Positions 1 through 15,740 of a DNA stretch of 23,394 nucleotides are shown here, in pieces. The translations under genes were made by a program, and so were the position numbers. This DNA is from a virus: IMG/VR virus record IMGVR_UViG_3300020442_002919, positions 1 to 23,394 of that record, one strand, 5' to 3'. Under the pieces are notes generated by a model, which ran no database searches, was not told the origin of the DNA, and was given only the letters and a program-made list of their open reading frames with translations. The number at the start of each line of letters is the position of its first letter. Position 1 is the first letter of the stretch.

Positions 1-1918
1 ATATAATGCCAATATGGTATCTAATGAGGTATTCATTGATTCCGCCACTCTCAGGGAGAATGTGGTGTCTCTGGCGAAGAATATAGGTTATACCCCCAGA
101 TCTAGTAAATGTGCTAGAGCTAATATTTCTTTTTTTGTTGATACCTCAAATTATGATAATAAACCACAAACTATTACCTTAAACAAAGGTATTGTTTGTA
201 CAACAACATCCTTTAGTGGTGAGAATTATACATTTTCAATTATTAATGATATCACAGTTCCGGTGGTAAATGATATCGCATCATTTGACAATATTGATGT
301 TTATCAAGGAACATATGTCACATCTGAATTTACATTTAACACATACGATCCTGATCAAAGATATATTCTAGATAATCAAAACATTGATGTCTCCACGATT
401 AATGTAATATGGAAACCATCAAGTAGATCATCAGTTAAAAGACAATATCATAAGGCAGATTCATTGTTTGAAATTGATGGAGATTCGCCTGTTTATTGGG
501 TTCAAGAAATAGCGGATGAAAGATATGAATTAATATTTGGGGATGGTATTTTTGGATCTGCTCTCATAGAACCTAACTTCATTCAGGTTACATATCTTGT
601 TAACGACGGTGTTGCTGGAAATGGATTAGCAAGATTTAATTTCAATGGTAAACTTACCACCTCTAGAGATAATCTTGCGATAGAGTCAGGTATTTCTAGA
701 ATTACAGTTAATAATGAATCATTTGGTGGACAAGGAGTTGAAAGTATTGAGTCGATTAAAAAATATGCACCTCAAACATATGCTTCGCAAAACAGAGCGG
801 TAACATCAACAGACTATGAATATATCATTCCTATGATATATCCAGAGACTGAATCGGTATCAGTGTTTGGAGGTGAAGAATTAAATCCACCACAATATGG
901 AAAAGTATTTGCAAGCATCAAACCTATTAATGGTGCGTATCTTTCTAATCTTGTAAAGGATAATTTAAAGAGAGAGATAAAAAAATATTCAGTTGGCGGT
1001 GTTGACTTAGAAATTACAGATCTTAAGTTTCTTTATATCGAGTCATTAGTTAATGTTTACTATAATTCTAATGATGCTAACGAAGATCTCATAAGTTCAA
1101 TTGTTAGTGATAATATTGCAAGGTATTCGGATTCAACTGAACTCAATAAATTTGGTGCAAGATTTAAATATAGTAAGTTTTTGAGTGTTATTGATAATTC
1201 CAATTCTGCAATTACATCTAACATTACTACAATTCAAATGAGAAGAGATTTGAGAGCTTCTCTTAATTCCTTTGCTGAATATGAAATTTGTTTTGGTAAT
1301 AGGTTCCATATTGTCAATCATGGACATGGAACTCATGGAGGTAAAATTGGATACAATATTAAATCCTCAGGATTCCAAGTAAGTGGTGTAGCAGGAACCG
1401 TTTATCTGATAGATCGAGCTGATCAATCTTTAGAGACAGGAACCATTGATTTAATTAGATTAAAATCTCCTACTGAACCAATTATAGTAAAAAGAAATAT
1501 AGGAACGGTTGATTATATTAAAGGAGAAATAAAGTTAAATCCAATTAATATTATATCAACTAACATTAATAGAAGGTTCCCATTAATTGAAGTTTCAGCA
1601 GTTCCTTATTCAAATGATATCATCGGATTACAGGATCTTTATATTCAACTAGATACTAATAACGTAACAATTAATTCTATAAATGATAGGATTTCTTCTG
1701 GTTATGACATATCTGGATCTGACTATATTGTAACTTCTAGTTTCGCTAACGGAAGTTTAGTACGTGGAACAGTTGATTTGATGTCATCAAATCAAGATGC
1801 ACAAAATCAAAATGTAAGATCAACGACAACAGTAACTACAACTAGATCTACAACTGGAACCACGCAAACTTACACGTCACCAACTACAACAACTTCAACT
1901 CCTACTTATAACTACTAA
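1..1918 (+). CDS. 6: Baseplate wedge protein gp6, C-terminal part (5' truncated)
   Basis: Baseplate wedge subunit of a T4-like contractile tail (Baseplate_J / Mu gp47 / P2 gpJ family). In T4, gp6 dimers form the inner ring tying the wedges together. The frame is open from base 2, before the first ATG at 14, and those residues (YNAN) belong to the family's conserved entry into NEVFIDSATLRENVVSLAKN, so the ATG is internal and roughly 60-70 N-terminal residues lie outside the window. Hallmarks: IGYTPRS (about 83-103); LIFGDGIFGSALIEPNFI with a following GVAGNG (about 530-630); APQTYASQNRAVTSTDYEYI and GGEELNPPQYGKVFASIKP (about 767-925), the typical Baseplate_J core; YEICFGNRF (about 1280-1306). 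Oddities are a histidine-glycine loop at 1319-1342 and a Thr-rich tail at 1820-1915. The next gene starts 8 bases after the stop. The identity is firm; only the missing start is unknown. Confidence 0.92.
   Translation, partial: YNANMVSNEVFIDSATLRENVVSLAKNIGYTPRSSKCARANISFFVDTSNYDNKPQTITLNKGIVCTTTSFSGENYTFSIINDITVPVVNDIASFDNIDVYQGTYVTSEFTFNTYDPDQRYILDNQNIDVSTINVIWKPSSRSSVKRQYHKADSLFEIDGDSPVYWVQEIADERYELIFGDGIFGSALIEPNFIQVTYLVNDGVAGNGLARFNFNGKLTTSRDNLAIESGISRITVNNESFGGQGVESIESIKKYAPQTYASQNRAVTSTDYEYIIPMIYPETESVSVFGGEELNPPQYGKVFASIKPINGAYLSNLVKDNLKREIKKYSVGGVDLEITDLKFLYIESLVNVYYNSNDANEDLISSIVSDNIARYSDSTELNKFGARFKYSKFLSVIDNSNSAITSNITTIQMRRDLRASLNSFAEYEICFGNRFHIVNHGHGTHGGKIGYNIKSSGFQVSGVAGTVYLIDRADQSLETGTIDLIRLKSPTEPIIVKRNIGTVDYIKGEIKLNPINIISTNINRRFPLIEVSAVPYSNDIIGLQDLYIQLDTNNVTINSINDRISSGYDISGSDYIVTSSFANGSLVRGTVDLMSSNQDAQNQNVRSTTTVTTTRSTTGTTQTYTSPTTTTSTPTYNY
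1820..1915 (+). other. Thr-rich low-complexity C-terminal tail of gp6
   Basis: The last 32 residues of gp6 are 18 Thr plus Ser, Pro and aromatic residues, ending TPTYNY. No fold is expected. It is probably a flexible surface or linker tail added after the conserved wedge domain. T4 gp6, as I recall it, has no such tail; this comparison is from memory. Confidence 0.8.
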
Positions 1919-1926
1919 GACGTAAG

Positions 1927-4900
1927 ATGATATCAACCGATTTACAGCGAGTACAAATTCAGGACATTATTGAGTATCAGTTACCTGCATTTGTAAGGGA
2001 CGACTTTCCACTTGTTGGTGAATTTTTAAAGCAGTATTATATTTCACAAGAATTTCCAACTTCTCCTGCTGATGTCATTCAAAATATTGATGAGTATGTA
2101 AAATTAGAAACTCTTCTTTCTGCAGAAGATGAAGCACGTCTTGATTTAGATATTGAATTTGATGACACTACAATTAATGCAACATTTAATTTGTATGAGG
2201 ATTATTTTGGTACATATAAGTTTCCGGAAAGATATGGTTTAATAAAAATTGATGATGAGATAATATTATATACAACTAGAAGTAACTATCAATTTAAAGG
2301 TTGTGTACGTGGTTTTAGTGGGATAACCCAGTTTAATGATAGTGATCAAGAATTAAATTTTAGTTCATCTGAAGCAACATCTCATGTCCAGGGTGCTAAA
2401 ATTATCAATCTTAGCAACCTTTTATTAAAAGAATTTTTAGTAAAATTAAAACAACAAATTTCACCTGGATTTGAAAGAAGAGAACTTGATTCTGAATTAA
2501 ATCAAAGACTTTTTCTTTCACGATCTAGAGACTTTTATCAATCTAAAGGCACTGATGAGTCATTTAAAATTTTATTTGGTGCTCTATATGGAGAAAAAGC
2601 GGAAGTTATAAAACCAAAAGAGTTTCTGTTTAGGCCATCTGATGCTCAATATAGAAAAACAAGAGATTTAGTTGTTGAAGCGATTGTAGGTGATCCATCT
2701 TCTCTCAAAAATCAAACTCTATATCAAGATGCGTATCCTGAATATGGTATTGAAAGTTCATATGGCACTGTTGTTGATGTTCAGAGACTTCTAAGAGATG
2801 ACAAGAACTACTATCAATTAAGTGTTGATTTTGATTATAGTAAAGATATTGATCTTACTGGAGGAACTGTTTTAGGAAATTTTGTTTCTCATCCTAAAAC
2901 AAAAAATACCACAGTGGTTGCAAGTGGTTCATCAATAATCGATGTAGATTCTACAATAGGATTTCCAGATAAAGGGCAACTTATCATTGATGGACAAAGT
3001 GGTATATTAACATATAGATCAAAAACAATCAACCAATTTTTTGGAGTTGGTTTAGCTAACACAACTGTGTCTGGAACAACTGCAGACATTAGTGCTGGAA
3101 CAGAATTCAATTTAAACGTTAATGCATACGGTTTTCAGGGGTATAATTCAATTTCCATTGCCTCCAGTGAAACTTCAACCGTAGGTATTGCAACTACAAC
3201 AAAGATTGAGGTTAGAATTGGTAATGTTCTCTCAAACAATTTAATATATGATGATACTTCATATTTTACTACTAATGATAACATTAGAATTAAATCTTTA
3301 GGTATAACCACATATTCACCACTGAATATTAATTGGTTAACCAACGTTAGTCCAAAGTATGATGTTAAAGAAGTAACTTTAACCGATTCATCAAGTTTTA
3401 CATATTCAATTGAAACTTTTGCTGCTAATAGTTTTACAGTTGGTGATAGTGTTACTGTTATACAATCAGATGGTGTAGGTAAATCTGGTTTAGTAATTGA
3501 TATTTCAAATGCAAAGAAATTTTCTTTTTCAAGAGCAGGTGAATTAACAGGTAGCACATTCAGTGTAAGAAGAGATATTCTTAAACCCGAAGTAAATAAG
3601 GTTAATGATAAAAATTATTCTTATTTAAGTAAGTCATTTGCAAACATTCAAAACACATATGCAAAATACACTGGTGATGTTTTAGTAGCATCTCCATCTA
3701 TTCCAAATTATTTTGATACCCCACTTAATTTTTATGATAAAAAAATTGAACTTGATGGAACTTACAGCGGAGAAGTATTTTCTTCAACTCAAGATCATGG
3801 ATATTATACTGGTGATAAAATATACTATGAATCTTACAGATATACCGATAGTATTGGATTAACAGTAGAGAGTAGATTTCCAGAAATTGAACCAGGAGTT
3901 TTTTATGTAAAAAGAGTAAGCAGCACGCAATTTAAAATTGCGTCAAGTATTACTAACTTATACAATAATACTTTTGTCTCTGTATCTGGTATTGTTACAA
4001 GTAATTATTTTTGTGCTAGTGATTTCTTTGATAAGAGATTAGAACATCAGCAACTCTTTAGAGAATTTAAATCTCCAATAAATGATGGTGGAGATTATAA
4101 TACACTTCCAGGTAAAACTGGTATGTTTGTAAACGGAGTTGAACTTCTTAATTACAAATCTGGTGATAGTGTTTATTTTGGAAAAATTAATGAAATAACT
4201 GTCTCAGCTGGCGGTGATGATTATGATGTTGTAAATCCACCTGTTCTGTCTATACAAGATTCTACAGGTATTGGTGCTACAGGTATCGTAAATGTAAAAG
4301 GAACATTTAAAAAATTTGAAATTATTGATCCTGGTTTTGATTATGTGACTGATCCCATTATCACTATTACAGGTGGAAATGGATCGGGAGCAATTGCAGC
4401 TGCCTCAACAAAATTTATTACACACTCTGTTTCTTTCTACGCAACATCTGATAACCCTCAAGTCGGGTTATCATCTAATAGCATTGGATTTACAACATTT
4501 CATAAATTAAGAGAATCTGAAAAAGTAATATACAGATCAGATGGGCAAACAGAAATAGGTGGATTATCACCTAATGCTGAATATTTTGTTAAATTAATTG
4601 ACTCAAAAACAATTAAATTATTTAAAACTGAAAGTGACACTATTAGTGGATCAAACGCTGTTGACTTAACCTCTAACGGTGTAGGTGTTCATAGAATTGA
4701 ATCTTTTAATCAAAAACGTGTAATCTCTGATATCAATATTATCAATCCTGGATCCGATTATGAAAACAAACAAAGATCTGTAGATTTCTCCGGAATAAAC
4801 ACGGCATCAAACCAAATCAATATTCCAGATCATAGATTTAATAGTGGTGAAACTGTTACTTATTCAGGAAATGCATCTGGACTTAGCTCTGATCAAACAT

Positions 4901-7900
4901 ATATTGTCACAGTAGTTGACTCTGATAATTTTAAACTGTCATCAGTTGGTGTTGGAACTACTTCTAAACTTTATTATTATAATTCTAGACAATATGTAAA
5001 TATTGAATCAACTGGTTCAGATTCTCATACTTTTAATTACCCACCAATCTCTGTTGTTGTTGAAGGGCAGATTGGTGTAACAACCTTTACCGGACAAGAC
5101 TTTAATGCAAAGATTCAACCAATTGTTAGAGGATCAGTCGAGTCTGTACAATTAACTGATAAAGGAGTTGGATATGGATCTAGTGAAATAATCAACCACA
5201 ATAAGCAACCATTATTTAAACTACTTACCGGAAGAGACGCTGAACTTCTTCCCATTGTTAATAATGGTAAAATAGAACAAGTTTTAGTTACTAACAATGG
5301 ATACGAATACAATACTCCACCCACATTAACTATTAATGGAACGGGAAGATTTGCTAAATTAACTCCCATTGTAAGTAATGGACAAATAACGAATATTATC
5401 GTTGATAATAGCGGCACGGATTATGATGACACAACCACTATAACAGTTACACCCAGTGGATTAGGTGCAAACCTTATTGCACAAATTAATCAATGGACTG
5501 TCAATTTATTTGAAAAAAATAAAGAAATTATTGAAAGTGATGATGGAATTTTAGATGTAGCATTAAATGATGAATATGGTATACAATTTACTCATCTTTA
5601 TGCTCCAAGAAAATTAAGAGAATCTTTATACGGTAAATCTCTGACTGGTACTTCTCAGTTTGAGGCTGATTTAATATATGATAATATTAAGTATGGAGTT
5701 GGTGATTTAAGAATTGATGGTTCTAATAAAGAAGTTACTAATGAATTTCACTCACCTATTCTTGGATGGGCATATGATGGTAATCCCATTTACGGGCCTT
5801 ACGGATATGAGAATAACACAGGTGGTAATGTAAAAGCACTTAGAAGCGGTTATAGCTTAATTGACGCATCAAATCGTCCATCTATTTCTACATGGAAAAA
5901 GGGATTTTTTGTTCAAGATTTTGAATTCACTAATGATGGTGATCTTGATGAACATAATGGAAGATATTGTGTGACTCCTGATTTTCCAAATGGCGTATAT
6001 GCATATTTTGCAACCATTAGTGATGGAAGTGTTGAGAGTGACGGTGCATTTAAAAATAACAAAATACCAGAGTTTCCTTACGTAATTGGTAATAATTTTA
6101 AATCAAAACCAAATGACTTTAATTTCAAAAATGATTCATATCAGAATAATTATGATGTAGCTGCTAATAGATGGTTAAGAAACACTACTTTCTACGGACT
6201 AACTTTAGATAATGCCACTTATGAATTTGTCACTCAACCATATGAGATTTTTCAGGAAGTTATAGACATAACAGCCACATCAAAAGGATCGATCGATAGC
6301 GTTGGTATCATTACAGGTGGTAGTGGTTATCAAGTAAATGATAGAATTGTATTTGAGGACATTCCTGGTGCCACACCAGCGAAAGCAAAAATATCTAGAG
6401 TGACTGGAAAGTCAGTTACAAACATTAGTGTTGCATCTTCAATAGTTTCTAATTTAGAAATTGCACCAGTTGACTCCTCTGGCAGATTCGTAGCTTTCTC
6501 AACAACTCCTCACAAGTTTGTTAATACCGATCTTATTACTCTATCGGGATTCAACACGTCAATAAATTTAAATAATAAGTCTGTAACTATTGGAGTTACT
6601 ACTGATTTTTATAATTTATCAACTGGAATTAATACCTCTGGTTCTACAGGAATTGTAACCTTTATATCTCTTAGTGGAGGTGTAATTGATAGAGGCATAC
6701 TTTCTATTAAAGAAAATGACATTTTGTCCTTAGGAAGTGAAAAAGTAAAAGTTCTCAATGTAGACAATCTTAATTCTAGAATAAGAGTTGAAAGAGCAGT
6801 AAATGGCACAGTCTCAAGTGCTCATACATCTACGACATCTATATCAGAGCAGAGTCGTAAGTTTACTTTCAATTCGGATAGAGAAAACAAAGTTAACTTT
6901 GAATTGAATAAACAGATCTATTTTGATCCTCGTGAGACTTTAGGTATTGGAACTTTAAGTGGAGTTGGAATTGGATCTACCATTTTCTTCTCAAATCCTG
7001 GAGCTGGTTTAACTCAAACGTTCTTGAATACCAGATCCCTTTTCTTACCTAATCATAAATTAAATACTGGCGATATTGTTTTATATCATAACGGTGATGG
7101 ACAATCAATTGAGGTTGATTCTAATCCTACTACTGGCACTACTTACAGAATTGCCAATGAAACAAAATTGTATGTTGCAAAAATAAGTGACGACATAATT
7201 GGAATTCAAACATTTAAAGTTGGAATTGGTTCTACCGGTACTTTTGTTGGTGTAGCAGACACAACAATGAATTCTGGATTGCTATTCTTTACTGGAATAG
7301 GAACAGGAACAAAGCATAGTATTAAAACTGTACGATCTAATGTAGTAAATGCTGAGTCTAGTAAAAATATAGTAACTGTCGCGACTGGATCTACTCATGG
7401 ATTGACGATTGGTGATCATGTTTTGATGTCTGTTACACCTGGAATCACTACAACAGTAACAGTTAAGTATAACGATCATAATAGAAGAATTGTTTTTAAC
7501 CCAATCGGATTCACTACAACAGGAGTAAGCACTGCTCTTAACACTATTACAGCATCTGATCATGGATTAAACACTGGTGATAAAGTAATACTGGATTCAA
7601 GCCCCGCTCCTAGTGGTTTACAAGATCAAAAAATTTATTATGTATATCGATTCTCTAAAGATAAAGTAAGACTTTGTAATTCAAAATTTGAGGCAGAAAA
7701 ATTCCAACCAAATTTTGTTTCAATTGATGTTGCTAGAAGTGGCACACTATTGCCAATTAATCCCTCAGTAAACATATTTGCGGGCAATACAGTTGTATTT
7801 GATCTCAGTGATAGCACTTTATCATCGTTGAATATATCTACATTATATTCTGCATTTGAAATGGATCTCTATAGAGATTCAAAATATACTGATAAGTATG

Positions 7901-10900
7901 TTGGTTCTCTCACTACTGATGATTTTGAGGTAACTAAAACGGGTAAGGTAGGAATTGATGCTAATGCAAAATTGACATTAGTTGTAAATGATAAAACACC
8001 TGAAAATTTATTTTATAAGTTCTCTTTAGTTAATTCTGATTTTGTTGAAGATGTAAAAAAAGAAATTATTATTGATGACGAAGTTGTCGGTTTTAATAAA
8101 ATTAATCTTGTTTCAAGTGATTATGACGGAGAATTTACTTTAGTTGGGATTGGTACAACAAACACCTTTACTTACAATGTAAAAAATGTTCCCGAAAGAT
8201 CTTCATATTCTTCTTCTACAGGAGGATTATCGTATAGCACTAACTCTACTAACGCTTATGGTGGTATATCTGAAATCAACATAACGTTTAAAGGATCTAA
8301 TTATGATGAAGTTGTTGGAGTTTCAACCGTAGTTGGTATTGTAACCGGAACTGGTGCAGTTCTTGAACCAGCGAGTACTTCAATTGGTAGAGTTTTAGGA
8401 ACAAATATAGAAAATATTGGATTCAATTATCCAACTGATTTTACTATTCGTCCCACTACAAATCTTCCAGAAATAGTTCAACTAGAATCTTTGACATCAT
8501 TTAAGTCAATTGGAATTACATCAGGTGGTAGAAACTATGCAATAGCTCCTAACTTGATTGTTCTTGATGGTTTAACTGGAAAACATATTGATGATGTTGA
8601 TCTTCGCTTTGAACTTGGTGATTCTGAAGTTACCATAAGAAAAAATACCAGTGGATTGACAAACGTTACACCCACTATAATTCCAATTAGTAATAGTAAT
8701 GGCGTATCGATTAATGAAATAACATTTGATATGTCAACTAAAAATGTAACAGTTGGATTTGATACAGGTTTTAGTGATCAATCTCCATTTGCAGTTGGTG
8801 ATAAAGTTCTTATTGAAAATGTAAGCGTTGGTGTAGGATCAACTGGATCTGGATATAATTCTGTTGATTATGGATACCAATTGTTTACACTCACTGATGT
8901 TAACATCCCTCTCGGTGGAAATGTCGGAGTTGTTACATTTAGTCTATCTGGTATTATTAATGACAATCTTTATCCTGGAAACTTTGATTCAAGTAATTCA
9001 GCAGGCAAGATTGTTAATCAAAGTTCTTTCCCACAGTTCAAAATTGAACTTAAAAAGAATGACTTCCTCATAGGAGAGGATGTAGTTTCAAATAGTGGAA
9101 CTGGAAAAGTTGATAGTTGGAACAATAGAATTGAACTCTTAAAAGTTTCAACGTCAAGAGACTTTAAAGTTGGCGATTTAATAATCGGACAAACATCAAG
9201 AACTCAAGGTAGAGTAAAATCCAAAATTGATTACAACTCTGAAATTGAAACAGAATCCTCTTCTATTGTAGAAAGGGGTTGGAGAACAACAACTGGATTT
9301 TTTAATAATAATCAGCAGAGAATTCCAGATAATTTCTATTATCAAAATTTCTCATATGCTATTAAATCAAAGATCCCCTTACAAAAATGGGATGACGCTG
9401 TAAGTTCTTTAAACCATACATCTGGATTCTTAAAGTTTAGTGACTTGGTTATTGAATCAAGCGATGATAAAGGAACAGGTGTCGTTTTTACAGACAATTC
9501 AGCAAACGTGTCCTTAACTGTTGATTTAATGCCCATTCCCACTTATGGTGGCGGTGGAGCAGGGTTTGGTGGTTTTGGTGGAGCTATTAGTTTAAATTGT
9601 TTCCCTGCTTTTGATTTAGTAACTGAAAATGATAAATTTGCATCAGGTAAAATATACTCTGATCGCATTTTCTTACAAAACAGAGTCCTTACTGATTTCT
9701 TTGAATCAGTTGGTAATAGAGTTCTAATTATTGATGATATTAGCACTCAATTTAATAGTGAAGAACGTCCCACAAGATTTAGTGTTGTTAAAAAGTTTTC
9801 AATCGATCAAAGAAGTAAGAAAATACTTACTTTTGTTAGAGACAAACTTTATACAGGGGAACGTCAAGCATCCCTTGTAACATTAGTTCATGATAATCAA
9901 AATGCAACTGTTAATAATTATGGAAGGGTTGAAAGTGTATTAGATCTTGGATCGTTTGATTTTAACATCTCAGGAACTGAAGGACAACTGTTATTCTTCC
10001 CAACTAAATTTAGACGAAACAATTATAATATTTCACTTTGCAGTTTTGATATAGATGATTCTGTAACAGGAGTCGGAACCTTTGCTCTAGGGGAAATATG
10101 CGATATTTCTTCCACACAAGTAGAAGTGCCCGCTGCAACTAAAACCACTATTGTTGGAATTGCTTCTACATATAGATCATCTAAAGTTCTCGTTCAGTTT
10201 ACAACTGATGATGGAAGATTTGGTTATAATGAACTGAACGTAATACATGATGGAACAACAGTTGATGTCCTAGAATACGGTGATCTTATTACGGGTGGCC
10301 AGGGAACCGCTACAGGACTTGGAACGTATGGCGCTGACATGTCAGCAGGTACAATCAATGTTGACTTTACCCCTGCAGCTGGATTAGCACTAACTGCAAA
10401 CACAGTTAGAGTTTCCATGTCTAGCACTGAGTCTGTCGGTGTTGGTACAACAATAATTGGACAATCTACAGAAAACATTGCTAGGTTAGAAACATTCCAT
10501 ACATCTATTGGATCCACTTCATCTCCCGGCATTCACACAATCGCTACCTATACAAACACATCTGGTGATACTGACTATAGTGCTGCTTACTACATCGTAA
10601 GTATAGAAGACACAACAAATGATCAATATCAAATGTCTGAAGTCATTGTATTGAATGACGCATCAGAGTCTTATATAACCGAATATGGCACTCTTGAAAC
10701 ATCGTCCGGAATTGGAACGATAGGTGCATTATTCACATCGGATAATACACATCTTCAATATACTCCACCTGCTAGTGCGAATGTACAAGTTCGTGTATAT
10801 CAGCAGGCAGTTCAATTGGTTGATGTTGATAATACACTTGATAATGAAATTGATATCAACAATGCATCAATCACTGCTGGATTTGGTTTCTATGAGGGAA

Positions 10901-13900
10901 CTGCTAATGATGTTAAGAGACAATTCTCTTTGACTCATAAAGGACTTCCGATCTTTAATAGGAATTTTGATGGAAGTGATAGCACTATTACAAATATAAC
11001 AGATAATGAAATTACATTACCTGATCATTTCTTTGTAACAGGAGAACCTCTTAACTATTCTGTTGGTATTGATACTCATGTTCGTATAGCGATTGAACCT
11101 ACTTCATTTACTGGCATCGGCACAACATCATTGTTACCAATTAATGCTACTGTATTTGCAATCAAACAAAATGATTCAAAAATTAAATTAGCATCATCCG
11201 CTGAAAATGCTAACAATTCAACCCCAGTTGCTATTGGTATTACGGGTGTTGGTATTGGAACCTTCCATACATTTACCTCTACAAAGCAAAATACGAAGTG
11301 TTTAATTGCAATTGATAACATTATTCAAAATCCCATTGTATCAACTGCCACAACTACTTCTCTTGATAAAGAAATTCAAATTGGAGATGCAGTTATTGAG
11401 ACTGTAGGTGTCACATCATTCTTCTCTGCAGATTTAATTCAAGTTGAATCTGAAATAATGAAAATTAATACAGTTGGATTGGGAACAACCAACGGCATAT
11501 TAGTTGATCGTGGATGGATGGGCACTGGAATAACGACTCATCCTGTTGGAGTAGCAGTTACAAAGGTTGATGGTGCTTACAACATAGTTGGTAATACAAT
11601 CAATTTCTATACAGCACCAAGAGGCCCAATTCCCATTGGTTCCATCACAAATCCTCCTGATGAAAGAGATTGGACAGGAATTACAACTTTCTCTAAATTC
11701 CAAGGAAGAGCATTTACAAGATCGCAGACACAAAACAGTTCTGAACCAGCATATGAATCAAATTATGTGTTTGACAGCATTGCTGATCAATTTGATGCGA
11801 CTACTAAGACATTTACTCTTAAATCAGAAAATGAAAATGTTACTGGATTCTCCACTAACAATGGTGTTGTTTTAATTAACGGAATATTCCAAGGCCCCAC
11901 CGGACAACTAAGTATTCCTCAAGATTATTCATTAAGTGAAGGATCAGGTATTAGTAGTATAACATTTACTGGAACTGCTACATCTATTGCTTATGATCCT
12001 AATAATGCAAATATTCCCGTAGGTGGATATATTGTTTCAGTTGGTTCGACAGGTGGATTGGGGTATCAACCGCTTGTTGCAGCAGGTGGTACTGCAATTG
12101 TGTCATCGGCTGGCACAATCACATCTATTAGCATTGGAAACACTGGATCAGGATATAGATCTGGTATTCAAACTGTAAATGTTGGAGTTTATACTTCTTC
12201 GACAGGGAGAACTGGAATTGAATTTATTGGAACTGCTGCGATAAGTAATGGACATATTGTCAGTGTTGCAATTACTAACCCTGGTTCAGGATATCTAATT
12301 GGATCTGAACCAAATGTTGTGTTTGATGCACCTCGCTCATATTCTGATATTCCTTTAATATATTCTGATTCATCTTCTGCAGGATTTGGAACAGAGGCCA
12401 CAGTTAACATTGTTGTAGGACAAGGATCAAGTGTCATTGATTTTGAAATTAAAAACTTCGGATATCGTTATGGACAAAAACAAATATTAACTGTGGCGAC
12501 TGGTGGTGCAACTGGAATACCCACTGACACAAACTTTACATTTGAAGAGTTCCAAATTACAGTTGATAAAACAGATTCTGATAAATTCTCTGCTTGGCAC
12601 TTTGGAGAACTTGAGCGTCTTGATAACATCAACACCGAATTTGATGGTGTTACAAGACAATTCACAATTAAGAGAAATGGAGATCCAGTTACTGTAAGAG
12701 CAGCGAAAGGATCAAATATTGATGTTGAATCAACATTAATAATTTTCGTTAATGACATACTTCAGGTTCCTGGAGAAGCGTATCAGTTTAGTGGTGGAAG
12801 TGTAATTAATTTCTCTGAGGCACCCAAAGGGCCATCTGCAGATGGTAATTTTAGTGGCGATACTTGTAAGATCTTATTCTACAAGGGAAGTGGTGATATT
12901 GATGTTACCTTCCGCGATATTCTTCCCACTATAAAAGATGGCGATATGCTCTCTATTAGAGGTGATGATAGTCTTGTCCCTGGTTCACTCGATCAAAATG
13001 AAAGATTAGTCACCGAAGTATTGTCCTCTGATACCGTTGAAACTAATGCATATTATGGAAGAGGTATTGATTCAAATCCTGATCATGCACGAACTGTTAC
13101 ATGGTGTAAACAAACATCCGATAAAGTTATCAACGGAAAAATTGTTAGTAAAGCCAGAGAACTTAATGCAGCACTAATTAATCCCAGAACAAATATTATT
13201 CAATCTGTTGGCGTTGGATCAACTGAAATTTATGTTGAGAGTGTCATTCCATTCTTTAATCCTGATGATGAAAATCAAACTGTTAAGAATCAGCAAACCA
13301 TAAGTATTGTCTCTCAAGATAATCTTGTGGCCGCTGCTGCTACAGCAGTCGTATCCATCGCAAATACAGTTGAATCCATTACAATTGGATATGGAGGAAC
13401 AGGATATGTTACGGCACCATCCGTAACCATTGAAACTCCTGTGGGACTTGGAACCACTGCTAGAGCGACTGCAACTGCAACTCTAACTGGTGATGCTGTG
13501 TCTGCTATAACAGTGTCCACACCTGGTGTTGGTTATACAAGAACGTCTGTTCCACAGGTTCTTATTGAGTCTCCTAAGTTGATTAAAGAGACAAACAGAT
13601 CATCTTTATACCAAGGTGATTTTGGAGATATTGTTGGACTAACTTCTACATCCGTTGGAGTTGCATCTACTGGATTTGTAATGGATATGTTCATTCCGAT
13701 TGATTCATTCCTTAGAGATACAAAAGTTGTTGGAGCTGCTGTCACTCTTAGTGATATTTCAGTTGGTGATTACTTCACAGTTAGAAATAGTAATGTAGGA
13801 AGCGGGGTAACTACACTTTACCAAACCGGTGGAACTTTAGGTGTAACAACTCAATTCATCGACTCTGTATATGAAGTAGCAGCAGTGTCTGTTGCTCAAA

Positions 13901-14151
13901 CCGCAGTTGCTGGAGTTGGTATTACATATATTAAGAGGGTTACTGTTAGTGTTGAAGATCTCGGTGATATTACTGGAATCGGACTTACAGAATTCTATGG
14001 TGAATTCTCATGGGGTAAAATTACATTAGGAAGCAGAGTAAATGCTGTAGCATTTGATGCGTACACTCTCAGAGGATCTGCAGGAATTACTACCGGTGCT
14101 GTGATAAACAGAGTTGAACCTCTGAAACTCGTAGGATACTCTACAACATAA
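1927..14151 (+). CDS. Giant modular baseplate structural protein in the gp7 position, with YHYH-type domain
   Basis: One unbroken frame of 4,074 codons (roughly 430-440 kDa) lies directly between gp6 and gp8, where T4 has gp7 (1,032 residues). Residues 1-240 look like the conserved anchor. Residues 199-222 carry RSRDFYQSKGTDESFKIL followed by FGALYG, resembling the KGT motif of P2 gpI / phage tail protein I, to which T4 gp7 is related. The rest is beta-rich modules: RG-type modules (about 102-166, 336-381, 1590-1639, 3164-3218); HxL-x-(T/S)GD...IKL modules (about 619-1006, 1526-1920, 3031-3090); many GSGY-type repeats; a YHYH-like domain (about 1274-1390); a Gly-rich loop (2541-2556); a tandem pair (2742-2965); and two FDG / INGIFQGP modules (3289-3348, 3572-3656). 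The C-terminus (FIDSVYEVAAVS, FSWGKI) resembles the ends of other marine-phage tail proteins. No signal peptide or membrane segment is seen. A virion baseplate role is well supported by context; gp7 identity is an inference from position and the KGT motif. Confidence 0.75.
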   Translation: MISTDLQRVQIQDIIEYQLPAFVRDDFPLVGEFLKQYYISQEFPTSPADVIQNIDEYVKLETLLSAEDEARLDLDIEFDDTTINATFNLYEDYFGTYKFPERYGLIKIDDEIILYTTRSNYQFKGCVRGFSGITQFNDSDQELNFSSSEATSHVQGAKIINLSNLLLKEFLVKLKQQISPGFERRELDSELNQRLFLSRSRDFYQSKGTDESFKILFGALYGEKAEVIKPKEFLFRPSDAQYRKTRDLVVEAIVGDPSSLKNQTLYQDAYPEYGIESSYGTVVDVQRLLRDDKNYYQLSVDFDYSKDIDLTGGTVLGNFVSHPKTKNTTVVASGSSIIDVDSTIGFPDKGQLIIDGQSGILTYRSKTINQFFGVGLANTTVSGTTADISAGTEFNLNVNAYGFQGYNSISIASSETSTVGIATTTKIEVRIGNVLSNNLIYDDTSYFTTNDNIRIKSLGITTYSPLNINWLTNVSPKYDVKEVTLTDSSSFTYSIETFAANSFTVGDSVTVIQSDGVGKSGLVIDISNAKKFSFSRAGELTGSTFSVRRDILKPEVNKVNDKNYSYLSKSFANIQNTYAKYTGDVLVASPSIPNYFDTPLNFYDKKIELDGTYSGEVFSSTQDHGYYTGDKIYYESYRYTDSIGLTVESRFPEIEPGVFYVKRVSSTQFKIASSITNLYNNTFVSVSGIVTSNYFCASDFFDKRLEHQQLFREFKSPINDGGDYNTLPGKTGMFVNGVELLNYKSGDSVYFGKINEITVSAGGDDYDVVNPPVLSIQDSTGIGATGIVNVKGTFKKFEIIDPGFDYVTDPIITITGGNGSGAIAAASTKFITHSVSFYATSDNPQVGLSSNSIGFTTFHKLRESEKVIYRSDGQTEIGGLSPNAEYFVKLIDSKTIKLFKTESDTISGSNAVDLTSNGVGVHRIESFNQKRVISDINIINPGSDYENKQRSVDFSGINTASNQINIPDHRFNSGETVTYSGNASGLSSDQTYIVTVVDSDNFKLSSVGVGTTSKLYYYNSRQYVNIESTGSDSHTFNYPPISVVVEGQIGVTTFTGQDFNAKIQPIVRGSVESVQLTDKGVGYGSSEIINHNKQPLFKLLTGRDAELLPIVNNGKIEQVLVTNNGYEYNTPPTLTINGTGRFAKLTPIVSNGQITNIIVDNSGTDYDDTTTITVTPSGLGANLIAQINQWTVNLFEKNKEIIESDDGILDVALNDEYGIQFTHLYAPRKLRESLYGKSLTGTSQFEADLIYDNIKYGVGDLRIDGSNKEVTNEFHSPILGWAYDGNPIYGPYGYENNTGGNVKALRSGYSLIDASNRPSISTWKKGFFVQDFEFTNDGDLDEHNGRYCVTPDFPNGVYAYFATISDGSVESDGAFKNNKIPEFPYVIGNNFKSKPNDFNFKNDSYQNNYDVAANRWLRNTTFYGLTLDNATYEFVTQPYEIFQEVIDITATSKGSIDSVGIITGGSGYQVNDRIVFEDIPGATPAKAKISRVTGKSVTNISVASSIVSNLEIAPVDSSGRFVAFSTTPHKFVNTDLITLSGFNTSINLNNKSVTIGVTTDFYNLSTGINTSGSTGIVTFISLSGGVIDRGILSIKENDILSLGSEKVKVLNVDNLNSRIRVERAVNGTVSSAHTSTTSISEQSRKFTFNSDRENKVNFELNKQIYFDPRETLGIGTLSGVGIGSTIFFSNPGAGLTQTFLNTRSLFLPNHKLNTGDIVLYHNGDGQSIEVDSNPTTGTTYRIANETKLYVAKISDDIIGIQTFKVGIGSTGTFVGVADTTMNSGLLFFTGIGTGTKHSIKTVRSNVVNAESSKNIVTVATGSTHGLTIGDHVLMSVTPGITTTVTVKYNDHNRRIVFNPIGFTTTGVSTALNTITASDHGLNTGDKVILDSSPAPSGLQDQKIYYVYRFSKDKVRLCNSKFEAEKFQPNFVSIDVARSGTLLPINPSVNIFAGNTVVFDLSDSTLSSLNISTLYSAFEMDLYRDSKYTDKYVGSLTTDDFEVTKTGKVGIDANAKLTLVVNDKTPENLFYKFSLVNSDFVEDVKKEIIIDDEVVGFNKINLVSSDYDGEFTLVGIGTTNTFTYNVKNVPERSSYSSSTGGLSYSTNSTNAYGGISEINITFKGSNYDEVVGVSTVVGIVTGTGAVLEPASTSIGRVLGTNIENIGFNYPTDFTIRPTTNLPEIVQLESLTSFKSIGITSGGRNYAIAPNLIVLDGLTGKHIDDVDLRFELGDSEVTIRKNTSGLTNVTPTIIPISNSNGVSINEITFDMSTKNVTVGFDTGFSDQSPFAVGDKVLIENVSVGVGSTGSGYNSVDYGYQLFTLTDVNIPLGGNVGVVTFSLSGIINDNLYPGNFDSSNSAGKIVNQSSFPQFKIELKKNDFLIGEDVVSNSGTGKVDSWNNRIELLKVSTSRDFKVGDLIIGQTSRTQGRVKSKIDYNSEIETESSSIVERGWRTTTGFFNNNQQRIPDNFYYQNFSYAIKSKIPLQKWDDAVSSLNHTSGFLKFSDLVIESSDDKGTGVVFTDNSANVSLTVDLMPIPTYGGGGAGFGGFGGAISLNCFPAFDLVTENDKFASGKIYSDRIFLQNRVLTDFFESVGNRVLIIDDISTQFNSEERPTRFSVVKKFSIDQRSKKILTFVRDKLYTGERQASLVTLVHDNQNATVNNYGRVESVLDLGSFDFNISGTEGQLLFFPTKFRRNNYNISLCSFDIDDSVTGVGTFALGEICDISSTQVEVPAATKTTIVGIASTYRSSKVLVQFTTDDGRFGYNELNVIHDGTTVDVLEYGDLITGGQGTATGLGTYGADMSAGTINVDFTPAAGLALTANTVRVSMSSTESVGVGTTIIGQSTENIARLETFHTSIGSTSSPGIHTIATYTNTSGDTDYSAAYYIVSIEDTTNDQYQMSEVIVLNDASESYITEYGTLETSSGIGTIGALFTSDNTHLQYTPPASANVQVRVYQQAVQLVDVDNTLDNEIDINNASITAGFGFYEGTANDVKRQFSLTHKGLPIFNRNFDGSDSTITNITDNEITLPDHFFVTGEPLNYSVGIDTHVRIAIEPTSFTGIGTTSLLPINATVFAIKQNDSKIKLASSAENANNSTPVAIGITGVGIGTFHTFTSTKQNTKCLIAIDNIIQNPIVSTATTTSLDKEIQIGDAVIETVGVTSFFSADLIQVESEIMKINTVGLGTTNGILVDRGWMGTGITTHPVGVAVTKVDGAYNIVGNTINFYTAPRGPIPIGSITNPPDERDWTGITTFSKFQGRAFTRSQTQNSSEPAYESNYVFDSIADQFDATTKTFTLKSENENVTGFSTNNGVVLINGIFQGPTGQLSIPQDYSLSEGSGISSITFTGTATSIAYDPNNANIPVGGYIVSVGSTGGLGYQPLVAAGGTAIVSSAGTITSISIGNTGSGYRSGIQTVNVGVYTSSTGRTGIEFIGTAAISNGHIVSVAITNPGSGYLIGSEPNVVFDAPRSYSDIPLIYSDSSSAGFGTEATVNIVVGQGSSVIDFEIKNFGYRYGQKQILTVATGGATGIPTDTNFTFEEFQITVDKTDSDKFSAWHFGELERLDNINTEFDGVTRQFTIKRNGDPVTVRAAKGSNIDVESTLIIFVNDILQVPGEAYQFSGGSVINFSEAPKGPSADGNFSGDTCKILFYKGSGDIDVTFRDILPTIKDGDMLSIRGDDSLVPGSLDQNERLVTEVLSSDTVETNAYYGRGIDSNPDHARTVTWCKQTSDKVINGKIVSKARELNAALINPRTNIIQSVGVGSTEIYVESVIPFFNPDDENQTVKNQQTISIVSQDNLVAAAATAVVSIANTVESITIGYGGTGYVTAPSVTIETPVGLGTTARATATATLTGDAVSAITVSTPGVGYTRTSVPQVLIESPKLIKETNRSSLYQGDFGDIVGLTSTSVGVASTGFVMDMFIPIDSFLRDTKVVGAAVTLSDISVGDYFTVRNSNVGSGVTTLYQTGGTLGVTTQFIDSVYEVAAVSVAQTAVAGVGITYIKRVTVSVEDLGDITGIGLTEFYGEFSWGKITLGSRVNAVAFDAYTLRGSAGITTGAVINRVEPLKLVGYSTT
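2521..2592 (+). other. gpI/gp7-like KGT motif in the giant protein
   Basis: Residues 199-222 read RSRDFYQSKGTDESFKIL then FGALYG. The pattern of an aromatic residue, S, KGT, a short helix, then ALxG is the recognisable signature of P2 gpI-type tail proteins, which form the wedge together with the gpJ/gp6 protein. This is the best sequence argument that this gene is the gp7 equivalent rather than only a fibre. Confidence 0.55.
5236..5490 (+). repeat. GSGY-type repeat cluster in the giant protein
   Basis: Consecutive units follow the pattern 'xIxxVxVTNxGxxYxxPPxLTI': EQVLVTNNGYEYNTPPTLTI, then TNIIVDNSGTDYDDTTTITV, preceded by SVQLTDKGVGYGSS. Each unit is a pair of short beta strands joined by a Gly-Tyr turn. 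Other copies of this family lie near 4189-4410, 4717-4790, 6289-6400, 8260-8580, 12010-12348 and 13366-13572. Confidence 0.65.
5743..6093 (+). other. YHYH-type domain inside the giant protein
   Basis: Residues about 1273-1389 carry the hallmarks of the YHYH family: HSPILGWAYDGNPIYGPYGY (1276-1295), DLDEHNGRYCVTPDFP (1339-1354), a GVYAYFATI strand where cellular members have YHYH-like residues, and a closing FPYVIG. The family occurs in marine bacteria and phages and its biochemical function is not established. Histidines of the eponymous motif are replaced here by YAYF, so any metal-linked role would need the remaining His residues. Confidence 0.7.
9547..9594 (+). other. Glycine-rich loop in the giant protein
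   Basis: Residues 2541-2556 read YGGGGAGFGGFGGAIS. Such a poly-Gly/Phe stretch is unlike the Thr/Ser/Asn-rich beta modules around it. It probably marks a flexible hinge or the tip of a loop between two halves of the protein. Confidence 0.6.
10150..10821 (+). repeat. Tandem divergent domain pair in the giant protein
   Basis: Two consecutive domains of about 90 residues share a pattern. The first (2742-2833) has SSKVLVQFTTDDGRFGYNEL, VIHDGTTVDVLEYGDL, GLGTYGAD, VDFTPAAG and VRVSM. The second (2869-2965) has DTTNDQYQMSEVIVLNDA, YITEYGTLETSSGIGTIGA, LQYTPPASANVQVRVYQ. The order of strands and the EYG, G(L/I)GT, FTP/YTP and VRV positions agree. They look like an internal duplication of one beta-sandwich module. 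Confidence 0.65.
11791..11970 (+). repeat. FDG / NG-Q-P tail module, copy 1
   Basis: Residues 3289-3348: FDATTKTFTLKSENENVTGF, VVLINGIFQGPTGQ, SIPQDYSL, SSITFTG. This is the widespread phage tail module with an FDGxTxxFTL entry, an (I/V)NGxxQxP strand and a final xITF strand. A second copy lies at 12640-12894. Confidence 0.65.
12010..12348 (+). repeat. GSGY-type repeat cluster in the giant protein
   Basis: Three adjacent units contain YIVSVGSTGGLGYQPLVAAG, SISIGNTGSGYRSGIQTVNV and SVAITNPGSGYLIGSEPNVV. The units match those at 5236-5490 and the unit in gp8, showing repeated use of the same small module. Confidence 0.65.
12640..12894 (+). repeat. FDG / ND-Q-P tail module, copy 2
   Basis: Residues 3572-3656: FDGVTRQFTIKRNGDPVTV, LIIFVNDILQVPGEAYQFSG, VINFSEAPKGPS, then a GD...ILFYKGSG end. 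It is a fuller version of the module at 11791-11970 and is common in phage tail and fibre proteins, where it is thought to be structural. Confidence 0.7.
13366..13572 (+). repeat. C-terminal GSGY-type repeat pair in the giant protein
   Basis: Two units, SITIGYGGTGYVTAPSVTIE and AITVSTPGVGYTRTSVPQVL, are separated by an Ala/Thr-rich strand (TARATATATLTG). This is the cleanest tandem pair of the family in the window. Confidence 0.65.
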
Positions 14152-14180: not shown

Positions 14181-15740
14181 ATGGCTGCGATTATAACTGA
14201 TCAACTTCGTATTTTAAATGCAAAGGATTTTGTTGCTAGTGTTGCGTCCACCAGCAACTCTTTCTATTCATTTGTAGGATTGCCCAATCCAACTGACGTT
14301 GATGCTAGTTGGGATAGCAGTCCTCCGGATCCTAGAGACAACTTTAACGAGGAGAACAATTATTGGGATACAATGATTGCTCTTAAAAAAATTGATGAAG
14401 AGGACGTAAAACAAGTAATCAGAAAAGTTACTTGGAAGTCTGGAACAACTTATGATATGTATCGTAATGATGTAAAGGCAGAGAGTCCCTCTAAACCCTC
14501 AAATGCAACCACACTGTATGAGGCAAATTATTATGTAATGAACTCTGATTATAGAGTATATCTTTGCTTACAAAATGGAAGCAACCCTGAAAACCCGAGT
14601 GGAAGAGCATCTCTTGATGAACCAACTTTCACTGACTTAGAACCAAGAGAAGCGGGTACAAGCGGCGATGGATACATTTGGAAATATCTTTACACCATTA
14701 AACCCGGAGATATTGTAAAGTTTGACTCAACAAACTTTATGCCTGTTCCTAAAGATTGGACAACAACAACGGATGCAAATATATCTGCTGTTAGAAATAA
14801 TGCAAGCACAAGTGGACAGTTAAAAATTGTAAAAATAACCAACAGAGGTGTAGGATTAGGAACTGCTAATAGAACCTACACACGAGTTCCTATTAAGGGA
14901 GATGGTAATGGAGCTGAGTGTACAGTTGCCATTAACAACAATTCAAAAATTGAATCTGTTACTATTTCAAAAGGCGGTTCAGGTTATACTTTTGGAACTA
15001 TTGATCTAGTGGCAGGTAATGTACCGACAGGTACTACTGCTCCAATTTTTGACGTTATGATACCACCTCAAGGTGGACATGGTGCTGACATTTATAGAGA
15101 ACTTGGAGCGAGAAATGCATTAATATATTCAAGAATTGAAAATGATACTGAAAATCCAGATTTTATAACTGGAAATGAAATTGCAAGAGTTGGAATTGTT
15201 CAAAATCCAAAATCATACTCCTCTACTTCAAATCTCGAACTTGATAAAGCAGCTGCAACTTATGCACTGAAATTGACAGGTGTTGGATATAGTTCTGCCA
15301 CCTTTACTGCCGATGCTTTTATAACACAAACTGTTGGACTTGGATCTACAGCAGTGGGTAGAGTTGTATCATATGATCAAGTAACTGGTGTTTTAAAATA
15401 TTGGCAAGATCGTTCAACAGCAGGATTTAATACTGACGGAACAAAAAACACGAGTCCTGAATATGGATTTAAAATGAATCGATTTACATCTGGAATCACT
15501 GGTGGAGGATCGTTTGATATTATTGGAGGATCTTCAACATTAGCGATTCAAACCTCATTTACAGGTGTATCAACCGAAATAAATAGTCGTACTTATTACC
15601 TAGGACAGTCCTTCTCGGAGGGTGTTGCTCAACCTGAAGTTGAAAAATATACGGGTAATATTATTTACGTAGATAATAGGCCTTCGATTACCAGATCGGC
15701 TAACCAAAAAGAAGATATCAAGATTATCTTGCAGTTCTAA
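14181..15740 (+). CDS. 8: Baseplate wedge protein gp8
   Basis: Wedge subunit; in T4 gp8 is a dimer that binds gp7 and gp10 in each wedge. The 519 residues compare with 334 in T4. Recognisable signatures: the N-terminal LNAKDFVASVASTSNSFYSF and FVGLPNPT; WDSSPPDP; GDGYIWKYLYTIKPGD (T4: GDGYVWEYLFEIPP); PPQGGHG (about 296-302); and the C-terminal end YVDNRPSITRSANQKEDIKI followed by ILQF, which matches T4's ENRPPIIMAMDQTEEINI end. Much of the extra length lies at residues 214-290, a GSGY-type insertion like the modules in the upstream giant gene. The start has no strong Shine-Dalgarno sequence; it is chosen because the family's N-terminal motif begins right after it. The next gene follows after 6 bases. 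Confidence 0.92.
   Translation: MAAIITDQLRILNAKDFVASVASTSNSFYSFVGLPNPTDVDASWDSSPPDPRDNFNEENNYWDTMIALKKIDEEDVKQVIRKVTWKSGTTYDMYRNDVKAESPSKPSNATTLYEANYYVMNSDYRVYLCLQNGSNPENPSGRASLDEPTFTDLEPREAGTSGDGYIWKYLYTIKPGDIVKFDSTNFMPVPKDWTTTTDANISAVRNNASTSGQLKIVKITNRGVGLGTANRTYTRVPIKGDGNGAECTVAINNNSKIESVTISKGGSGYTFGTIDLVAGNVPTGTTAPIFDVMIPPQGGHGADIYRELGARNALIYSRIENDTENPDFITGNEIARVGIVQNPKSYSSTSNLELDKAAATYALKLTGVGYSSATFTADAFITQTVGLGSTAVGRVVSYDQVTGVLKYWQDRSTAGFNTDGTKNTSPEYGFKMNRFTSGITGGGSFDIIGGSSTLAIQTSFTGVSTEINSRTYYLGQSFSEGVAQPEVEKYTGNIIYVDNRPSITRSANQKEDIKIILQF
14820..15045 (+). repeat. GSGY-type module inserted in gp8
   Basis: Residues 214-289 contain LKIVKITNRGVGLGTANRTY, a GDGNGAECTVAI strand and SVTISKGGSGYTFGTIDLVA. 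The pattern is the same as the repeats in the upstream giant gene. T4 gp8 lacks it, so it explains part of the extra length here. Confidence 0.65.

Follow-up and report, generated by a model that had tools for sequence, protein, structure and literature searches.

A giant gp7-slot protein of a T4-like marine phage, probably a cyanophage-type gp7 whose core appears split by a long insertion

In T4, gp7 together with a gp6 dimer initiates the baseplate wedge. Among T4-like cyanophages of the Kyanoviridae, collinear orthologs of 3,000 to 6,600 aa occupy the gp7 slot, several of which have carried the names "gp7" or "baseplate wedge initiator" from 2010 onward. It has also been stated that T4 gp7 is absent from cyano- and pelagimyophages, with VrlC in its place (PMC7029224). 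Here, we analyzed a 23,394-nucleotide stretch of viral DNA (IMG/VR record IMGVR_UViG_3300020442_002919, positions 1 to 23,394; referred to as the window), in which one very long open reading frame (ORF) lies in the gp7 slot (Table 1). Its product is very likely a gp7 of the cyanophage (Kyanoviridae) type, from a T4-like marine phage; this reading jointly takes in a split core, a looped-out arm, and a scaffold role.

Table 1. Features of the window, with nucleotide positions and the evidence for each
Feature	Position	Strand	Evidence
gp6, baseplate wedge subunit (5'-truncated by the window edge)	2..1918	+	phrog_219 E 1.7e-161; PF21871 Gp6_C-III 9.6e-6
gp7-slot protein	1927..14151	+	4,074 aa, 440 kDa; phrog_2885 at 3,475 bits
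Core half 1, residues 4-326	1936..2904	+	Family profile 423.8 bits; T4 gp7 724-758, 679-813
Second copy of beta module, residues 334-398	2926..3120	+	Family profile partial match 15.9 bits; module HMM
GGxGY beta modules, residues 712-836, 933-973, 1071-1195	4060..5511	+	Module HMM
YHYH domain, residues 1271-1364	5737..6018	+	PF14240 7.8e-24, 85.1 bits (curated cutoff 25)
Core half 2, residues 2442-2520, with QRIPDNFYYQNFSYAIKSKIPLQKWDDAVSSLNHTSGFLKF	9250..9486	+	Family comparison; PF23786 C-terminal part in relatives; weak T4 gp7 847-898
C-terminal tail modules: LNG-type 3280-3371 and 3563-3641 flanking GGxGY 3398-3502	11764..12849	+	Module HMMs
gp8, baseplate wedge subunit	14181..15740	+	PF09215 2.3e-11; phrog_438 3.7e-163
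VrlC-type DUF4815 structural protein, 2,485 aa	15747..23204	+	PF16075 1.5e-50; phrog_358 2,028 bits

The order gp6-ORF-gp8-VrlC in the window is that of the isolates, and window gp8 is 67% identical to gp8 of S-SM2. The match to phrog_2885, "baseplate wedge subunit," extends over residues 7 to 3426 (profile positions 8 to 3357 of 4,179). An initial sequence-only reading had described a gene between gp6 and gp8, about four times the size of T4 gp7, as a possible gp7 equivalent of exceptional size. Both neighbors are confirmed by PF21871/phrog_219 and PF09215/phrog_438, the size ratio holds (4,074 versus 1,032 aa), and the equivalence is supported by gene order, phrog_2885, profile similarity to T4 gp7, and virion proteomics of orthologs; the size, however, is normal for cyanophage gp7-slot proteins. 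Since orthologs among the isolates compared by blastp range from 1,016 aa (HTVC008M) to 6,483 aa (Syn19), a large protein in this slot is ordinary and represents the family norm. The gene psbA was present in a 184-kb relative and absent from the 11 partial relative contigs searched.

The frame runs from an ATG to a TAA with zero internal stops over 4,074 aa, in agreement with the earlier description of one clean frame, and its chance probability is ~2e-126 at the stop density of the window (6.9% of triplets). GC content by codon position is strongly biased (44% at first, 41% at second, and 18% at third positions). In 33 long homologs from metagenomic contigs the frame is uninterrupted over at least ~3,650 aa, a length that marks the end of the contig DNA compared and not the end of the frame. 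In a comparison of residues 1 to 3600 with four relatives at ~77% amino acid identity, pN/pS was 0.13 to 0.33 in each 400-codon block, so the coding frame is constrained far past the anchor. The ORF is real and under purifying selection along its length. In the otherwise similar contigs L023, L025, and L030, gp7 frames stop at 1,569, 614, and 963 aa, respectively.

Orthologs of the protein are found in virions, where the sequence-only reading had proposed to look for them by proteomics. The 4,120-aa ortholog of S-SCSM1 is annotated as a virion protein, S-SZBM1_208 (6,619 aa, 724 kDa) was represented by 71 peptides with 13.5% coverage in virions (PMC9146016), and S-CREM2 ORF122 (1,937 aa) was represented by 91 unique peptides with 27.2% coverage (PMC10665884). 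Virions of S-SM1 contained T4-GC969, the cluster to which the Syn19 protein belongs (PMC3037559). As a crude measure of copy number, we computed peptides per 100 aa for S-CREM2 from Table 3 of PMC10665884. The value for the gp7-slot protein was 4.7, compared to 4.4 to 5.2 for other inner wedge proteins and 8.1 for the gp25-slot protein, while gp6 (18.1) and gp8 (11.0) were both above it. These ratios roughly fit one gp7-slot copy versus two copies of gp6 and gp8 per wedge.

T4-type gp7 was the only match in a single-sequence search of the PDB with the window protein (E 0.0024; residues 193 to 227 versus 724 to 758). With family profiles, the match to T4 gp7 improved to E values of 5.6e-5 and 2.7e-6, and hhalign aligned half 1 to T4 gp7 residues 679 to 813 at 95.1% (E 3e-8), in line with the N-terminal similarity that the sequence-only reading had suggested checking. 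Half 1 scored 26.5 against T4 gp7, compared to a best score of 7.7 among 2,000 composition-shuffled T4 gp7 sequences. These profile alignments indicate homology of the N-terminal core with residues 679 to 813 of T4 gp7. Half 2 of the window alone had no PDB or Pfam match and was seen only by family comparison. It matched T4 gp7 residues 847 to 898 weakly (11.4 bits, reached by 1 of 2,000 shuffled sequences), and hhalign gave only 6% (E 0.006). This T4 segment is collinear with the half 1 match, i.e., in the right order, and is probably the equivalent of half 2. Enterotoxin, rifin, and chitinase entries in the PDB profile searches were at chance level and were rejected. The Pfam domains of T4-type gp7 (PF21428, PF21427, and PF21456) are found in T4 gp7, and none was reported in the window protein, which we therefore filed as the cyanophage type of gp7 and not as T4-type.

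Few conserved islands remain in the gp7-slot protein when it is compared by blastp with divergent homologs. Residues 1 to ~327 and ~2442 to 2520 are shared by all 14 gp7-slot proteins in the comparison (the window and 13 isolates), including the 1,016-aa HTVC008M protein, and half 2 was also found in 40 of 40 long-enough contigs. Half 1 consists of N-terminal helices, a beta module (about residues 61 to 166), and helices at residues 162 to 221 with the gp7 motif FLSRSRDFYQSKGTDESFKILFGALYGEKAEV. In different relatives, the compact 284-position domain PF23786 (Baseplate_wedge) is matched at profile positions 154 to 230 in half 1 and at 228 to 281 in half 2; the insertion thus interrupts a single compact domain near profile position 230. 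Half 1 of the window scored 13.7 bits against PF23786, below the curated cutoff of 27, while relatives scored above it (locus L081, 28.5; Syn19, 29.7; HTVC008M, 48.9). By sequence comparison, then, the conserved gp7 core is broken into half 1 (residues 1 to ~327) and half 2 (residues ~2442 to 2520), with ~2,115 inserted residues separating the two and a ~1,554-residue tail following the second. Insertion and tail measure 422 and 193 residues in HTVC008M, 1,535 and 4 in S-CREM2, 1,490 and 1,169 in S-PM2, and 2,619 and 2,974 in Syn19, which has a further 506 within half 1. The sequence-only reading had taken just the first ~240 residues as a wedge anchor carrying an arm and had assigned all the rest to modular beta domains. 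Its gp7-like N-terminal core stands, but half 1 reaches ~327 and the anchor is split, the second half lying at ~2442 to 2520; a YHYH domain and recurring beta modules account for part of the insertion and tail.

AlphaFold2 models were of low confidence both for residues 1 to 400 (39 sequences; pLDDT 55.6) and for residues 1060 to 1510 (44 sequences; pLDDT 42.9). When the 1-400 model was searched with Foldseek, as had been proposed for the N-terminus, gp7-length chains of 9f4a and 5iv5 ranked first (E 2.6e-3) and third (E 0.08) and gp7 5hx2_A ranked 20th, with no significant match to gp7 or any other chain from this low-confidence model (TM 0.14 to 0.15 for the top gp7-length chains). VIA-align paired the beta module at residues 61 to 166 with phage chain 9in6_M (Z 9.5, rmsd 2.8, 79 aligned), 8rk3_b (Z 8.9, rmsd 2.1, 78 aligned), and 8vjh_B (Z 7.7, rmsd 1.5, 64 aligned); gp7 was not among the matches listed for this module. 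As modeled, the anchor beta module resembles modules of other phage structural proteins. Matches to the 1060-1510 model were Ig-like with Z of at most 4.4 and were not informative.

Homology to T4 gp7, combined with what is known of T4, implies that the gp7-slot protein has an assembly role at the wedge core. We infer that the two core halves meet to form the gp7 part of a (gp6)2-gp7 wedge core, present once in each wedge and six times in the baseplate. The ~2,115-residue insertion would then form a large, looped-out arm rich in beta structure, and the tail after half 2 a second peripheral part. Together, insertion and tail contain 12 GGxGY modules (compared to 2 in HTVC008M and 21 in S-RIM8), two LNG-type modules, another copy of the anchor beta module, and one YHYH domain, and the tail modules are among the most conserved blocks of the protein. 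Arm and tail would mainly constitute a conserved baseplate scaffold that replaces T4 gp10 and gp11 and holds fibers and receptor-binding proteins, possibly with direct contact to the cell surface. A scaffold replacing T4 peripheral parts is plausible, since gp7, gp10, and gp12 have been listed as non-cyanophage core genes (PMC3037559).

It is also possible that the gp7-slot arm binds receptors, as the sequence-only reading had suggested. A doubtful reading is that insertion and tail serve mainly as receptor-binding adhesins, built into each wedge and setting host range, although several observations lend it some weight. S-PM2d081, which we took to be the S-PM2 gp7-slot protein S-PM2p081 on the basis of its number and its length (3,048 aa), acquired a nonsynonymous mutation by day 39 and more by day 500 of coculture with Synechococcus WH7803 (PMC9910659), so direct host contact remains conceivable. 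The arm carries a YHYH domain, that of P-HM1 also has CBM_5_12-like domains, and a localized divergent patch (residues ~2820 to 3100) separates the window from contig L003, to which it is otherwise ~99% identical (pS 0.33 in block 2801 to 3200 versus 0.04 to 0.08 elsewhere). This patch could reflect either local recombination in the tail or a chimeric assembly. Against adhesins, gp8 and other structural genes were also mutated in the S-PM2 coculture, identity is uniform over the chain, with tail residues 3301 to 3600 among the best conserved and above the anchor, and no hypervariable block or domain swap was found across the 33 long homologs. The even conservation, the conserved tail segment, and the lack of a hypervariable block favor the scaffold reading. 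Whichever applies, S-PM2d081, described as a "very large hypothetical protein" mutated in coculture, is now linked to the baseplate core. A broader proposal is that, in this abundant family of marine phages, the wedge initiator grows by insertion and duplication of beta modules at defined sites in the split core, assumes the roles of gp10, gp11, and perhaps in part fibers, and contacts the host. We regard this as speculative and rather improbable in its entirety; if true, host adaptation would act on the baseplate core protein itself. The split-core layout offers a concrete, checkable model of baseplate growth.

YHYH domains in general have been predicted to have metal-dependent hydrolase activity (PMC7824862), and the window domain matches PF14240 well above the cutoff; most Kyanoviridae gp7-slot proteins also contain the domain. 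An arm that degrades the cell envelope as a metal-dependent hydrolase is nonetheless very unlikely, because the namesake histidines are missing: the window has YAYF at residues 1358 to 1361 in place of YHYH, and phage homologs with a readable motif have YAYF, YVYF, or YCYF, with YAYH once. The sole invariant histidines of the domain are H164 and H216 (alignment A4 numbering). The forms Y[AC]YF and FAYF occur at 80 loci from cellular assemblies, a set that is biased by having been chosen with a related pattern. These loci (L097 to L176) carry the same Y[AC]YF form as the window, pointing to a large YHYH-domain subfamily without the namesake histidines. Some bacterial and archaeal metagenome-assembled genome contigs (L097 to L107, L123, and L130), including Planctomycetaceae TMED10 and Euryarchaeota TMED129, match 300 to 450 residues of the window phage region at 26 to 46% and are probably misbinned phage contigs.

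The published statement that gp7 is absent would imply that cyanophages and SAR11 phages lack gp7, that VrlC substitutes for it, and that the window ORF encodes an unrelated structural protein, as the lack of a match to T4-type gp7 Pfam models might also suggest. We consider this highly improbable. Half 1 significantly matches T4 gp7, while VrlC has no core half 2, overlaps the gp7 family profile in a single common beta module only, and has a solved DUF4815 relative of its own, PDB 9euf_0 (1,152 aa; E 8e-31 with the window protein), which could help to place VrlC/DUF4815 proteins in cyanophage baseplates. Moreover, VrlC adjoins the gp7-slot ORF in the window, S-SM2, P-HM1, S-SCSM1, and HTVC008M, so both are encoded together. 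The gp7-slot protein appears to carry the gp7 core, which argues against the published absence and replacement by VrlC and settles, by sequence, the occupant of the gp7 slot of cyanophage baseplates. Finally, there is a negligible chance that misassembly produced the long frame or that it is translated in separate pieces: shorter frames in four metagenomic contigs (614, 963, 1,569, and 3,047 aa) are probably assembly errors, the same long frame recurs in over ten isolates as well as in >30 contigs, orthologs of up to 6,619 aa were detected by mass spectrometry, and stop density, codon-position GC, contig conservation, and purifying selection in all blocks tested led us to reject an artefactual ORF.

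Compared to T4 gp7 (1,032 aa; 5hx2 and 5iv5), the window shares the gene order and the helical core motif (724 to 758; wider, 679 to 813), but T4 has ~33 residues between the halves versus ~2,115, and the bulk of T4 gp7 (~680 residues) precedes the core. GGxGY and LNG modules and a YHYH match were not found in T4 gp7 with module HMMs and Pfam. In the SAR11 phage HTVC008M, I899_gp055 (1,016 aa) has its core halves at 1 to 321 and 744 to 823, as in the window, but with an insertion of just ~422 residues, a tail of ~193, and no YHYH match. This gene (L091:33435-36485) is annotated "head closure Hc2" despite both gp7 core halves, a label probably due to GGxGY modules resembling phrog_460. At the other extreme, Syn19 (6,483 aa) and S-RIM8 (6,395 aa) belong to the window's family by core halves and module types, and S-SZBM1 (6,619 aa) belongs to it by annotation and a common YHYH region. 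Syn19 and S-RIM8 differ from the window in an extra ~506-residue insertion within half 1 and in longer arms. The Syn19 ORF (L090:1155-20606) is followed by gp9, not by gp8 as in the window; by blastp it contains no whole gp8, only a shared module. The P-HM1 protein (4,446 aa) has conserved segments in common with the window protein, and ACG-2014f gp7 (4,225 aa) is collinear with it. Closest are the gp7 "baseplate wedge initiator" proteins of the Synechococcus phages Bellamy (4,067 aa, 45% identical), S-SM2 (4,156 aa, 43 to 44%), and S-SCSM1 (4,120 aa, 37%) and of the Prochlorococcus phage P-TIM68 (4,307 aa, 39 to 41%), all collinear with the window. P-TIM68 and S-SCSM1, unlike the window, have additional genes between gp7 and gp8. 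These four gp7 proteins agree with the window protein in slot and length, in the order of their modules, and in the split core, and differ from it by sequence divergence only.
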